Part shown: positions 3,245 to 7,585 of the stretch, in pieces
Layout: every line of letters starts with the position of its first letter
Numbering within the stretch: position 1 is the first letter of the stretch
Source: a virus
Virus record (IMG/VR): IMGVR_UViG_3300044712_000647
Coordinates: 1-28,367 of that record
Direction: 5' to 3' (one strand)
Length of the DNA stretch: 28,367 bases
The notes under the pieces: model-generated
Seen by the model: the letters and a program-made list of their open reading frames with translations, nothing else
The model's database searches: none
What the model was told of the DNA's origin: nothing
Position numbers and translations under genes: made by a program

Positions 3245-3694
3245 TTAAACCACATCATATGTTTCGCCACCAGCTTCAATCTTAATTATATTGGTAACAT
3301 CATAAGAACGTGTTCTGTTTTCTGGAGAAAATCGGCTTACATAATCAACACCATCCACTTCGGTAACACACATTCGTAAAATTGCATTTTTTGCATATTG
3401 AACCTTTGCATTTAATTCTGGTCTACGAGTTTGTGCTGCCCGTAAAGATGCCTTACATGCTCCATATTTTCCTGTGATTTTCATTGACATTCCGGCTCTT
3501 TTTTTGGGATCGGTCTTGCTATCGCCCTTTCGAATCGTATAGATGGAAAACAATTCTTTTCCACCATTTGTTATTTTGTATATAAAATTTGAAATGTCTT
3601 GCCTGTCAACAGTTTTAGGACCAGTACGTTTAATAACTCTCTCTACAATTTGCTGATAAGCTTCCATTAACAAACTTGTATCCGTATCAAGCAT
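3245..3694 (-). CDS. Unknown 149-aa protein with capsid-targeting-like N-terminus
   Basis: I do not recognise the family. The N-terminus, with LLME|AYQQIV at residues 8-17, fits the (L/I)xE|A cleavage rule of the T4 prohead protease and resembles the capsid-targeting peptides of T4 internal proteins. The rest is a compact basic domain (many Lys and Arg, a central stretch around RAGMSMKITGKYGACKASLR) that could bind nucleic acid. It lies two genes downstream of another protein with the same N-terminus and shares their operon with the protease. The likely role is an internal head protein packaged in the prohead and possibly injected with the DNA; that is inference. SD AAGGA precedes the ATG. 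Confidence 0.7.
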   Translation of the reverse strand: MLDTDTSLLMEAYQQIVERVIKRTGPKTVDRQDISNFIYKITNGGKELFSIYTIRKGDSKTDPKKRAGMSMKITGKYGACKASLRAAQTRRPELNAKVQYAKNAILRMCVTEVDGVDYVSRFSPENRTRSYDVTNIIKIEAGGETYDVV

Positions 3695-3695
3695 A

Positions 3696-3977
3696 TTAAT
3701 TTCCTTGTGGCATACCGGCTTTAGATTGACTTACATTTCGTTCATAATTTTTCTGATCTTTGGAATATTGTCTTAAAACTGCATCTGATAAAAATTCGCT
3801 AGCAGGTATGTAAGTGCGAACTTCGGGATCAAAAACTTGAACATCCCAACCTTTAGTGGTTTTTGTAATTCGAACATCAGCCGAAATTTGTACTTTTCGT
3901 GTAATAGGTTTATTAGAACGCAAAAAATAATCGGAATAAGCCTCAATCAGTGCAATCGTGTCTTTGTCATCTTTCAT
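3696..3977 (-). CDS. Unknown 93-aa protein with capsid-targeting-like N-terminus
   Basis: This small protein starts with a short acidic peptide containing ALIE|AYSDYF (cleavage expected after Glu12), matching its two operon neighbours. After the tag comes a small beta-rich segment (KVQISADVRITKTTKGWDVQVF) and a polar tail rich in Gln, Ser and Asn. No family is recognised. Its stop is one base from the next gene, and an SD AAGGA precedes the ATG. Predicted to be cut by the gp21-like protease within the prohead. Confidence 0.7.
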   Translation of the reverse strand: MKDDKDTIALIEAYSDYFLRSNKPITRKVQISADVRITKTTKGWDVQVFDPEVRTYIPASEFLSDAVLRQYSKDQKNYERNVSQSKAGMPQGN

Positions 3978-3987
3978 ATTGTTTTCC

Positions 3988-4227
3988 TTAATATAATGAA
4001 TTACGTATCGGCTCTAGTTGTAATAAAATACTTCGAATTTTATTTTTTATATGCGAACTTCCAGCTTTTTCCGTATCGAAATGGTGTAACATTTTTTGAA
4101 ATTCAGAAATTAATTCGTCTATTTTCCTTCTGACATCATCAAAATTCTCTTTTAATAGTTTATCTTGCATGATTATTTCCGTTTCATATGCTTCCATCAA
4201 TGCAATCACATCATTATCAATGTTCAT
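3988..4227 (-). CDS. Unknown 79-aa helical protein with capsid-targeting-like N-terminus
   Basis: This protein begins with VIALME|AYETEI (cleavage expected after Glu12), nearly identical in layout to the next gene. The remainder is predicted to be two charged helices (residues about 20-50 and 55-78) and could be a small core or scaffold component, like T4 gp67 or gp68. Its ATG follows the protease stop by two bases, with the SD (AAAGGG) inside the end of the protease gene, so translation is likely coupled. Confidence 0.7.
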   Translation of the reverse strand: MNIDNDVIALMEAYETEIIMQDKLLKENFDDVRRKIDELISEFQKMLHHFDTEKAGSSHIKNKIRSILLQLEPIRNSLY

Positions 4228-4229
4228 TA

Positions 4230-4904
4230 TTAACCCTTTAAGCTATTAATAAAACTTGCAAACGCTTCCACAAGATAATTGTCCACATCTTTCTTTGGCA
4301 ACGCATTCAATTTACATTCAAGACTATCACAGGCAAGTTCAACAATTTTTCCACCTTGATCGATTATAAATTGACGATTTTCCATGATAGATTCCAACAT
4401 GGCATCGCTAACGGAAGGTTCGTGTACAATATCAAGCGCCAATATTCTTAATCCTTCAACAAGATTAATCTCTCCACGGGGTACTAATCGTCCTAATGCG
4501 CGACTTGAAATTCCCAATTTAATTCCATCCTGTAAAAGTTGGCGACAAATAACACCAGATGGTGTTGAAAGAATTTTTGATTTGCCCCAAAAATAATTAT
4601 TGTCTTTTTGTTCAAGTTGAATCACACTATGGCAGGCGCGGGTCAAGTCAACTTCCGTAGAATCTGATGGATGGTTGATTTCACCCAACGCTCTATTTGA
4701 ATTTATAAATTCGCGCTTATATCGATCTACTTCATTTATCATTTCAACTAGAGAATATTGCCTATGATTTTTATTTGGTTTATCGGCCATCAAATATGGC
4801 CCAGTTATATAATAACTTGCTGGCTCTTTAGTGTTTTTTTCCTCAACAATCAGTTCTAACTCACTAAGTATTGGTTTTTCTAATAATAATCGTAATGGCA
4901 TCAT
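4230..4904 (-). CDS. 21: Prohead maturation protease, gp21-like
   Basis: This 224-aa serine protease belongs to the T4 gp21 family (herpesvirus-assemblin fold). Motifs match T4: an N-terminal beta segment, GEINHPSD with the catalytic His (about residue 78), the strand WGKSKILSTPSG, and GISSRALG with the catalytic Ser (about 133-134). The C-terminus contains YLVE|AFASF, which fits the enzyme's own (L/I)xE|A rule and may be a self-processing site. It heads the head-gene operon, upstream of three small tagged proteins, scaffold and capsid, all likely substrates. The start is the first of two ATGs, six bases after AGGAG. Confidence 0.92.
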   Translation of the reverse strand: MMPLRLLLEKPILSELELIVEEKNTKEPASYYITGPYLMADKPNKNHRQYSLVEMINEVDRYKREFINSNRALGEINHPSDSTEVDLTRACHSVIQLEQKDNNYFWGKSKILSTPSGVICRQLLQDGIKLGISSRALGRLVPRGEINLVEGLRILALDIVHEPSVSDAMLESIMENRQFIIDQGGKIVELACDSLECKLNALPKKDVDNYLVEAFASFINSLKG

Positions 4905-4933
4905 ATTATTCTCCTAATGTCTTCTATTTTAAT

Positions 4934-6585: not shown

Positions 6586-6646
6586 TAGTTCGTTTCCTTG
6601 TTCGTAAAACAAGGTGGTGGACGAGTTGGGCTAACGCCCCGTTCAA
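6586..6646 (+). ncRNA. Structured RNA, candidate Y RNA partner of the DUF2828 protein
   Basis: Right after the stop codon there is an imperfect long hairpin. TTCGTTT (6589-6595) pairs with GGACGAG (6619-6625), then CCTTGTT (6596-6602) pairs with AACAAGG (6608-6614) around CGTAA, leaving a one-sided TGGT bulge at 6615-6618. A second hairpin follows, GGGC/GCCC around TAAC (6628-6639), flanked by GTT and AAC. A bulged long helix next to a Ro-like gene is the expected layout of bacterial and phage Y RNAs. It may be processed from the mRNA 3' end rather than made separately. Conservation is untested; it could simply be a 3' UTR structure. Confidence 0.45.
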
Positions 6647-6680
6647 CAGCCCCTAGATAATTTCTGGGGGCTGTTTTTTT
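6647..6680 (+). terminator. Strong intrinsic terminator after the DUF2828 gene and RNA
   Basis: CAGCCCCTAGA pairs with TCTGGGGGCTG (11 bp, one wobble) around a 5-base loop, followed by seven T. It is GC-rich in an AT-rich region. Confidence 0.92.
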
Positions 6681-6681
6681 A

Positions 6682-6710
6682 TTGACACAAATAAACAATA
6701 TTGATACACT
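6682..6710 (+). promoter_or_regulatory. Sigma70-like promoter for the phosphoesterase
   Basis: A perfect TTGACA (6682-6687), a 17-base spacer and TACACT (6705-6710). The expected transcript start falls on or next to the ATG at 6717, so the mRNA should be leaderless; no SD is present. Confidence 0.7.
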
Positions 6711-6716
6711 TCTTAA

Positions 6717-7304
6717 ATGAAAAATATATTTCTAATTTCGGATACTCATTTCGGCCATGATAGGATTCGCATTCATTGCAATCGTCCTTGGCATACAATC
6801 GAAGAACACGACGAAGCATTAATAACTAACTGGAACAATGTTGTTAAACGTGGTGATATTATATATCATCTTGGAGATTTTGCTATGATTCCAAAACAAG
6901 ATGATGGTACTCCAAGAATGAAACTTTATCGTAAACTTCGTATGCGTCTTAATGGAAAAATTATTCTTATAAAAGGCAACCATGATCAAATGGCAGAAGC
7001 TGTTTATAAAGAATGCTTTTCAGAAGTTTATGATCTGCGCGAAATAAAAATAAACGGAGAAAAGATCGTGCTTTGTCATTATCCATTACGCTCTTGGAAT
7101 GCTGCATTTCACGGGCGCAAGCATATCTTTGGTCATGTTCACGGCAGGCTTGAACGTGTTGATACGGGTGTTTCTTGTGATGTTGGGGTTGATGTTCCAG
7201 ATTGGAACTATGCTCCTGCTCCAATTGAAGTCGTTCTCGACAAGTTAAATATAAAATATAAAAAAATTAAAGAAATTAATAAATACAATAGAAGCTATGA
7301 TTAA
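6717..7304 (+). CDS. Calcineurin-like metallophosphoesterase
   Basis: This 195-aa protein has the full set of metal-binding motifs of the calcineurin-like phosphoesterase superfamily: SDTHFGH (residues 8-14), LGDF (around 51-54), KGNHDQ (around 85-90), a CHYP His, and GHVHG (around 138-142). The two-metal site hydrolyses phosphomono- or diesters; the substrate cannot be read from sequence, and small phage enzymes of this type may act on nucleotides or nucleic acid. Length is typical of single-domain members. It has its own promoter directly after the DUF2828 terminator and no SD. Its last four bases overlap the convergent gene behind it. Confidence 0.88.
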   Translation: MKNIFLISDTHFGHDRIRIHCNRPWHTIEEHDEALITNWNNVVKRGDIIYHLGDFAMIPKQDDGTPRMKLYRKLRMRLNGKIILIKGNHDQMAEAVYKECFSEVYDLREIKINGEKIVLCHYPLRSWNAAFHGRKHIFGHVHGRLERVDTGVSCDVGVDVPDWNYAPAPIEVVLDKLNIKYKKIKEINKYNRSYD

Positions 7305-7585
7305 GCTTGCATAAAATCAGAACCTCTTCCAAGCACATCACCATGACCCTGCTTATAATTGCGTTCAATAGTGCTATCTTCTGTACCAGTTTTATGTTTA
7401 TCACATAACCATAAAAATGCAGTTTGTTCTTCCATTGCATCAGGTCTTACGCTTATTCGTAGTTTGCATCCACAAGGAGCCTTTCCGCCAATAAACGATA
7501 TGTCTGGTTTGCCTATTACTGGTTCGCTGTTCTCATTTCGAATCTGTTCATATGCTTCTTCAAGAGTTTTAATATCATTATTCAT
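7301..7585 (-). CDS. Unknown 94-aa protein with capsid-targeting-like N-terminus
   Basis: From the ATG at 7585 the protein begins MNNDIKTLEE|AYEQI, the same tag as the three small genes beside the protease but more than 3 kb away. The body contains PCGCKL and LWLCDKH, which could form a small zinc site. No family is recognised. A TTG at 7606 in the same frame is an alternative start, but the ATG is preferred because the tag then has the same length as in the other copies. A late octamer ends five bases before the ATG with no SD, suggesting a leaderless late mRNA. Predicted to be an internal head protein. Confidence 0.65.
   Translation of the reverse strand: MNNDIKTLEEAYEQIRNENSEPVIGKPDISFIGGKAPCGCKLRISVRPDAMEEQTAFLWLCDKHKTGTEDSTIERNYKQGHGDVLGRGSDFMQA

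Follow-up and report, generated by a model that had tools for sequence, protein, structure and literature searches.

Why do four small proteins of one virus, whose bodies do not resemble each other, begin with nearly the same dozen residues? The proteins are encoded by IMG/VR record IMGVR_UViG_3300044712_000647, which we analyzed over its full extent of 28,367 bases (the window) and which, judging from its genes, is a fragment of an uncultured T4-like phage. An initial annotation, made from the sequence alone, had noticed [LI]xE-AY-type starts on these four proteins and had read them as capsid-targeting peptides. All four starts are at the places that it gave. We consider it quite likely that the shared peptide is a capsid-targeting propeptide, that is, a variant of the T4 type with a new sequence. 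The tags, the tagged genes and the nearby protease gene are:

3245..3694, minus strand: tagged cargo gene 1, 149 amino acids (aa), basic body (26 K+R, 15 D+E), no known family
3662..3694, minus strand: tag of gene 1 (MLDTDTSLLME, residues 1-11), with the cut predicted just ahead of AY; from the sequence and an alignment to 49 tagged proteins, with the Glu as residue 11
3696..3977, minus strand: tagged cargo gene 2, 93 aa, with a slightly basic body of no known family
3942..3977, minus strand: tag of gene 2, residues 1-12 (MKDDKDTIALIE), then AY; from the sequence and the alignment
3988..4227, minus strand: tagged cargo gene 3, 79 aa, without a confident family assignment (weak matches include coiled-coil and helical domains)
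4192..4227, minus strand: tag of gene 3, residues 1-12 (MNIDNDVIALME), then AY; from the sequence and the alignment
7301..7585, minus strand: tagged cargo gene 4, 94 aa, ATG start, outside the head operon, no known family
7556..7585, minus strand: tag of gene 4, residues 1-10 (MNNDIKTLEE), then AY; from the sequence and the alignment
4230..4904, minus strand: prohead protease, Peptidase_S77 of the T4 gp21 type (Pfam PF03420, E=2.2e-18; phrog_207, 2.2e-46)

Each of the four starts fits M-x(5-8)-L-x-E-A-Y, with the Glu at residue 11, 12, 12, or 10 and with Leu at P3 (the -2 position relative to the Glu); KDTSLLMEAYQQ is an example of a peptide of this type. Among the 30 called genes of the window, these are the only matches to [LIVMF]xEAY. 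When residues 2-40 of each window protein were shuffled, 0.0106 N-terminal tag matches were expected by chance (at most 1 per shuffle in 20,000 trials), whereas four are seen; the initial annotation had named a chance frequency as the outcome that would speak against it. The four shared starts are not due to chance. The bodies behind them have no BLASTP hit to each other at E ≤ 10, so the proteins are as dissimilar as had been claimed. The codons for the shared tag residues often differ (1-5 are identical out of 5-7 shared residues per pair), so it is the peptide that is conserved, not the DNA.

Tagged genes 1-3 fill the interval between the protease and the scaffold gene, with spacings of 1-10 bases, and the protease is the leading gene of the operon that holds these three, as had been described. 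Gene 4 lies 2.4 kb off, past two plus-strand genes. Ribosome sites of the AAGGA/AAAGGG type are present at three operon genes; upstream of gene 4 there is no obvious ribosome site. We sought homologues of cargo 1 and cargo 2 in IMG/VR and found none, so we have no fold or family for these proteins. AlphaFold models, made without alignments, of the 149-aa window protein and of an ADP-ribosyltransferase-like cargo from a related contig (L181) had a predicted local distance difference test score (pLDDT) of 39 and were not used.

Is the tag more widespread? We fetched related contigs whole, having found them via capsid homology or via a DNA pattern for the tag. In these IMG/VR contigs the consensus is M-x-D-K-D-T-x-L-L-x-E-A-Y, in a fixed register with the Glu at residue 11. 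A proteome search for such starts had been suggested for this phage; run on the related contigs instead, it gave 105 non-redundant tagged proteins in 81 body families (Glu at residues 8-12), so the tag can indeed be used to find more cargo. The Glu is residue 11 in 82 of the 105, and there is D at -6 in 87, A at +1 in 82, and Y at +2 in 95, but these columns are partly by construction, as the rule demanded L or I at -2, the E, an aromatic residue at +2, and partly D or N before. In an alignment of 49 tagged proteins whose rule also allowed V, M, F, or W at P3, there were 33 with Leu at this position, 15 with Ile, and 1 with Met.

Across 1,836 proteins, [LI]xEAY with the Glu at residue 11 occurs 24 times, as compared to 0.06 times per position at residues 20-100. 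If the Glu is replaced by D, Q, or K, then the peak vanishes (0 at residue 11), and with V, M, or F at P3 there is a weak peak at most (5 vs. 1.6). This set includes contigs that were picked by the tag. We repeated the count with contigs picked by capsid homology only (window included) and found [LI]xEAY with the Glu at residues 10-12 in 8 cases, as compared to 0.02 per position further in. A strict DNA pattern for the tag matched 18 stretches in IMG/VR but only one in 257 Gb of prokaryote genomes; that single match reads as folylpolyglutamate synthase and is at about the level of chance (we estimate ~0.5, from the pattern information).

Rows of tagged genes are common, with three to four in contigs L180, L196, L201, and L213 and nine across 54 kb in G023. 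Tagged genes are also over-represented at distances of up to 5 kb from the protease (18/191 vs. 24/824, p = 2e-4). At 7203-8357 of contig L195 (G023), a 385-aa fusion begins with the tag and contains another one (MKDNDLTMLQEKY) ahead of an acidic core-like domain; either two tagged genes have fused here, or the second tag marks an internal start. Outside these contigs, a tblastn search of 50,697 phage records with the consensus tag and three tagged families gave no match, although short queries are insensitive in such a search. The head loci of cyanophages BUCT-ZZ01 and P-HM2 contain no tag, and a loose rule applied to the whole of Pelagibacter phage HTVC008M gave 3 chance-like matches, none with EAY.

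What might the tag do? In T4, propeptides of 10-19 residues direct the internal proteins to the prohead core, and the gp21 protease removes propeptides by cutting after L/I-X-E; in IPIII, targeting depends on residues 4 and 7 and processing on residues 8 and 10 (PMC9026906). The window's tag is likewise a short N-terminal peptide on unrelated bodies that ends in L/I-x-E (P3 is L or I in 48/49 proteins), in a phage that encodes an S77 prohead protease. This protease is also present in 15 of 24 related records. Homologues of gp20, gp21, gp22, and gp23 are all present in the window, so its head is of the T4-like (gp23 lineage) kind; the portal gene matches phrog_213 (gp20 type), and every head gene lies on the minus strand. 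Besides the protease and the portal, these features are:

1996..2907, minus strand: scaffold, T4 gp22 type (Pfam T4_CASP, E=1.6e-6, above the cut-off)
447..1901, minus strand: major capsid protein, T4 gp23 type (phrog_138, E=3.3e-84)
1725..1733, minus strand: predicted capsid-protein cleavage site, L-R-E (residues 57-59) in YCLRE|TTQ, from a comparison of the N-termini of 15 relatives

CLxE|A, the counterpart of FLTE|A in T4 gp23, is conserved in the capsid proteins of most relatives in this clade, and the window has YCLRE|TTQ, so the predicted site in the capsid protein is of the same type as in the tag. The N-terminus of the window's protease itself has LLLE, ending at residue 9, and T4 gp21's own site is LIE-9 (PMC9026906). 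The window's tags do not have the aromatic residues at positions 4 and 7 of the T4 capsid-targeting sequence (CTS), as a homologue of MKTYQEFIAE would.

We propose that the tag docks the cargo onto the prohead core (the scaffold or the protease) during head assembly. The activated protease would then cut after Glu-10 to Glu-12, so that the mature proteins would begin with Ala-Tyr. The cargo would remain in the head beside the DNA, enter the host by injection at infection, and perhaps act on host defences or metabolism. Both the head targeting of the tagged proteins and the removal of the tag by the protease are predictions. The capsid-targeting proposal of the initial annotation is thus supported, though it is still something that we infer from sequence: the position of the tag, L or I at P3, and the linkage to S77 agree, and further support comes from the same type of site in the capsid protein, from the unrelated cargo, from Alt-like cargo in relatives, and from T4-type targeting sequences in the same gene clusters (see below).

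Some observations weigh against this proposal. The Ala, the Tyr, and, more weakly, an Ile/Val at +5 are conserved past the predicted cut, across unrelated bodies, while T4 IPII and IPIII read ARVG and ASVV after the cut, unlike the conserved A-Y. Because A-Y is conserved there, cleavage at the tag's Glu is not certain, and because a conserved A-Y-x-x-I/V follows the bond, the tag probably does more than mark a place to cut. Either the mature protein would keep part of the signal, or the protease recognises residues on both sides of the cut. Of 16 additional contigs (38-217 kb) with the tag, only 3 show the S77 protease. Six long tag-bearing contigs without S77 contain a T4-type DNA polymerase, and G019 and G020 also have a tail sheath, so the contigs without S77 are likely to be fragments of T4-like genomes that are missing the head genes. 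Also, the bodies of cargo 3 and cargo 4 are not basic, unlike T4's internal proteins.

Conservation that reaches +2 and +5 beyond the Glu could instead mean that the tag is an uncut docking helix that holds the cargo on the scaffold or the inner shell, with its LxE likeness to a cleavage site being secondary. The residues on both sides of the Glu would then form one amphipathic helix, D-T-x-x-L-x-E-A-Y-x-x-I/V. The scaffold N-termini of several relatives hold a similar segment (such as SKxAIVEAFxxAV), and for 7/15 scaffolds this segment ranks 29th to 100th out of 24,285 internal Glu sites. However, P3 is almost only Leu or Ile and the Glu is not swappable for D, Q, or K, and a helix alone needs neither; also, the window's scaffold does not have the Glu (TAIAKSFNEAV). 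We think that an uncut helix is unlikely. Separately, we tried the idea that the tag is a copy of the scaffold's N-terminus; its support is weak, and it does not hold for the scaffold of the window.

The tag might have nothing to do with the head and might be an intracellular address or a stability signal, for a replication site or controlled turnover, for example. This would fit the distance of many tagged genes from the head cluster and the several contigs in which the tag, but no head gene, is seen, but it is hard to square with the enrichment near the protease, the gp21-type P3-P1 rule, the tagged acidic core-like proteins between the portal and the protease in five contigs (G002, G009, G010, G012, and G022), the co-occurring T4-type targeting sequences, or the Alt-like cargo. 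We rate it as less likely still than the helix. Or the four proteins could be diverged paralogues of one ancestor, with the N-terminus as the last recognisable part and with no separate function for the tag. The tandem arrays in L180, L201, and L213 do suggest duplication, which may spread the tag, but this leaves the sole retention of the tag unexplained. The 81 body families include a nucleotidyltransferase, ADP-ribosyltransferase-like proteins, and long acidic proteins, and one enzyme family carries two different tags; that one tag precedes enzyme domains with different origins contradicts common descent, and we consider it very improbable. We therefore return to capsid targeting as the best account of the tag.

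In five related contigs (G009, G010, G012, G022, and G002), proteins start with T4-type targeting sequences (MITFKRFLVE, MITFKEYMLE, MTTFKQYFTE, MKSFKEYLQE, and MTFKQYLLE). These match T4's MKTYQEFIAE / MKTFKEF at the key positions 4, 7, 8, and 10, exactly or one residue short. MITFKRFLVE, for instance, is aromatic at 4 and 7 and hydrophobic at 8, with Glu at 10, as in the T4 CTS. The same five contigs have a long acidic protein, with the tag or a close form of it, in the interval between portal and protease; T4 has an acidic core protein, gp67, at this position. A third N-terminal motif, KAHNVGF[ML][ST]E.W, which ends in hydrophobic-x-E, is found on small proteins around the protease:

L116 (G009), 11196-12356 and 13603-14058: KAHNVGF[ML][ST]E.W proteins
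L119 (G012), 6934-7374 and 8068-8352: KAHNVGF[ML][ST]E.W proteins

Some types of cargo occur with more than one label. Homologues of tRNA nucleotidyltransferase have the window-type tag in G021 and a T4-type tag (MTFKEFYTE|AT) in G020. ADP-ribosyltransferase domains are found behind both types of tag in related contigs: an ART-PolyVal domain behind a T4-type tag (E=1.9e-17) and a PARP-like domain behind a window-type tag (E=2.3e-5, just under Pfam's cut-off). T4's Alt is an ADP-ribosyltransferase that is packaged and injected (PMC9026906). We tentatively suggest, at somewhat less than even confidence, that this lineage runs a cargo system whose N-terminal labels, two at the least and perhaps three, are interchangeable (MxDKDTxLLxEAY, MKTFKxFLxE, and KAHNVGFMTExW, each ending in a protease site) and would bring dozens of exchangeable proteins into the head, including ADP-ribosyltransferase-like proteins and tRNA nucleotidyltransferases. 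Perhaps the labels differ in docking partner or copy number. If this is true, then the system marks a repertoire of injected effectors that is otherwise invisible.

In L117 (G010; 13218-14999) and in G004 (75173-76930), the S77 gene has an in-frame insertion of ~350 aa right after GELNHPT/GELEHPN, adjoining the expected catalytic His. The insertion starts with Cys and ends with GN before a Ser, so it is intein-like. Pfam finds the protease in two pieces in these genes but names no domain inside the insert. The window's protease does not have the insertion.

The box AATAAATA is over-represented in the window (19 vs. 9 +/- 3 expected). Boxes precede the protease, capsid, and portal genes, and AATAAATA is likely to be a late promoter of the phage. 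Boxes upstream of head and other genes include:

1965-1972, 3213-3220, 4934-4941, 7591-7598, and 24245-24252, among others: AATAAATA boxes
4934..4941, minus strand: late-promoter-like box that starts 37 bases ahead of the protease/tag operon
7591..7598, minus strand: late-promoter-like box, 13 bases ahead of the start of the lone tagged gene, which is nearer than at most other genes

Other genes of the window are as follows. Between the tagged genes and the scaffold is one more small protein:

2909..3190, minus strand: small protein with a Cys-rich (zinc-ribbon-like) segment

Six related contigs encode weakly similar homologues at the corresponding place (E from 2e-5 to 9e-4), and by its position and its N-terminal part the window's protein may correspond to T4 gp67/gp68. 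The window's capsid protein is at best about 33-34% identical to annotated phage records, while many IMG/VR contigs match it at 64-83%. Two genes between the tagged genes, on the opposite strand to them, encode a protein with DUF7788 and DUF2828 domains (5032-6582), which we read as VWA-type and TROVE/Ro60-like, and an adjoining calcineurin-type phosphoesterase (6717-7304). The ribonucleotide reductase at 7616-10231 has barrel and TSCPD domains, which suggests the B12-dependent type. Near the portal is a TnsA-like endonuclease (20728-21174; PF08722, E=7.6e-19), and a similar gene directly precedes the protease in several relatives. A 608-aa protein at 18884-20710 starts with MRQLEDIYYLDILLEK and could be a further head cargo, because its LLE ends at residue 15 and it has a late-type box just upstream. 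It has no match in Pfam and no homologue among the fetched contigs.

Phage proteins that are injected early have mostly escaped notice, since they are small, evolve fast, and resemble no database entry. The tag is a candidate packaging signal, and a readable address label turns the hunt for injected proteins in uncultured viruses into a sequence search. One cargo enzyme under two labels also lets us ask about the docking partner of each label. T4's three internal proteins have recently all been shown to inhibit type IV restriction enzymes, and the internal-protein genes of T-even phages were found earlier via their targeting signal (PMC12373910). In the literature that we searched, which leaves out many subscription journals, we found no paper that describes the tag. 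The principle was already known from T4; the tag's sequence, the lineage, the fixed register, and the breadth of the cargo are new.

How does this compare to known systems? For the DarB CTS of phage P1, the N-terminal 30 residues suffice for sending a protein into the head (PMC9024508). Head proteins of the giant phage SPN3US, including ejected cargo, have N-terminal propeptides that are cut by the prohead protease after a P1 Glu (PMC5694885, PMC10052503). These resemble the predicted processing here, but they are mostly 111-254 residues long, the protease has another specificity, and no short tag is common to many cargos. The closest parallel is the CTS of T4 (IPI, IPII, IPIII, and Alt), with its short N-terminal peptide on unrelated bodies, its L/I-x-E end, its S77 protease (gp21), and its mix of small cargo and an ADP-ribosyltransferase. 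The sequence differs (MKTYQEFIAEA in T4 vs. MxDKDTxLLxEAY here), as does the position of the Glu (residue 10 in T4, usually residue 11 here), and the A-Y after the cut is conserved here. Unlike in T4, several tagged genes lie directly between the protease and the scaffold, and the diversity of the cargo is much larger.

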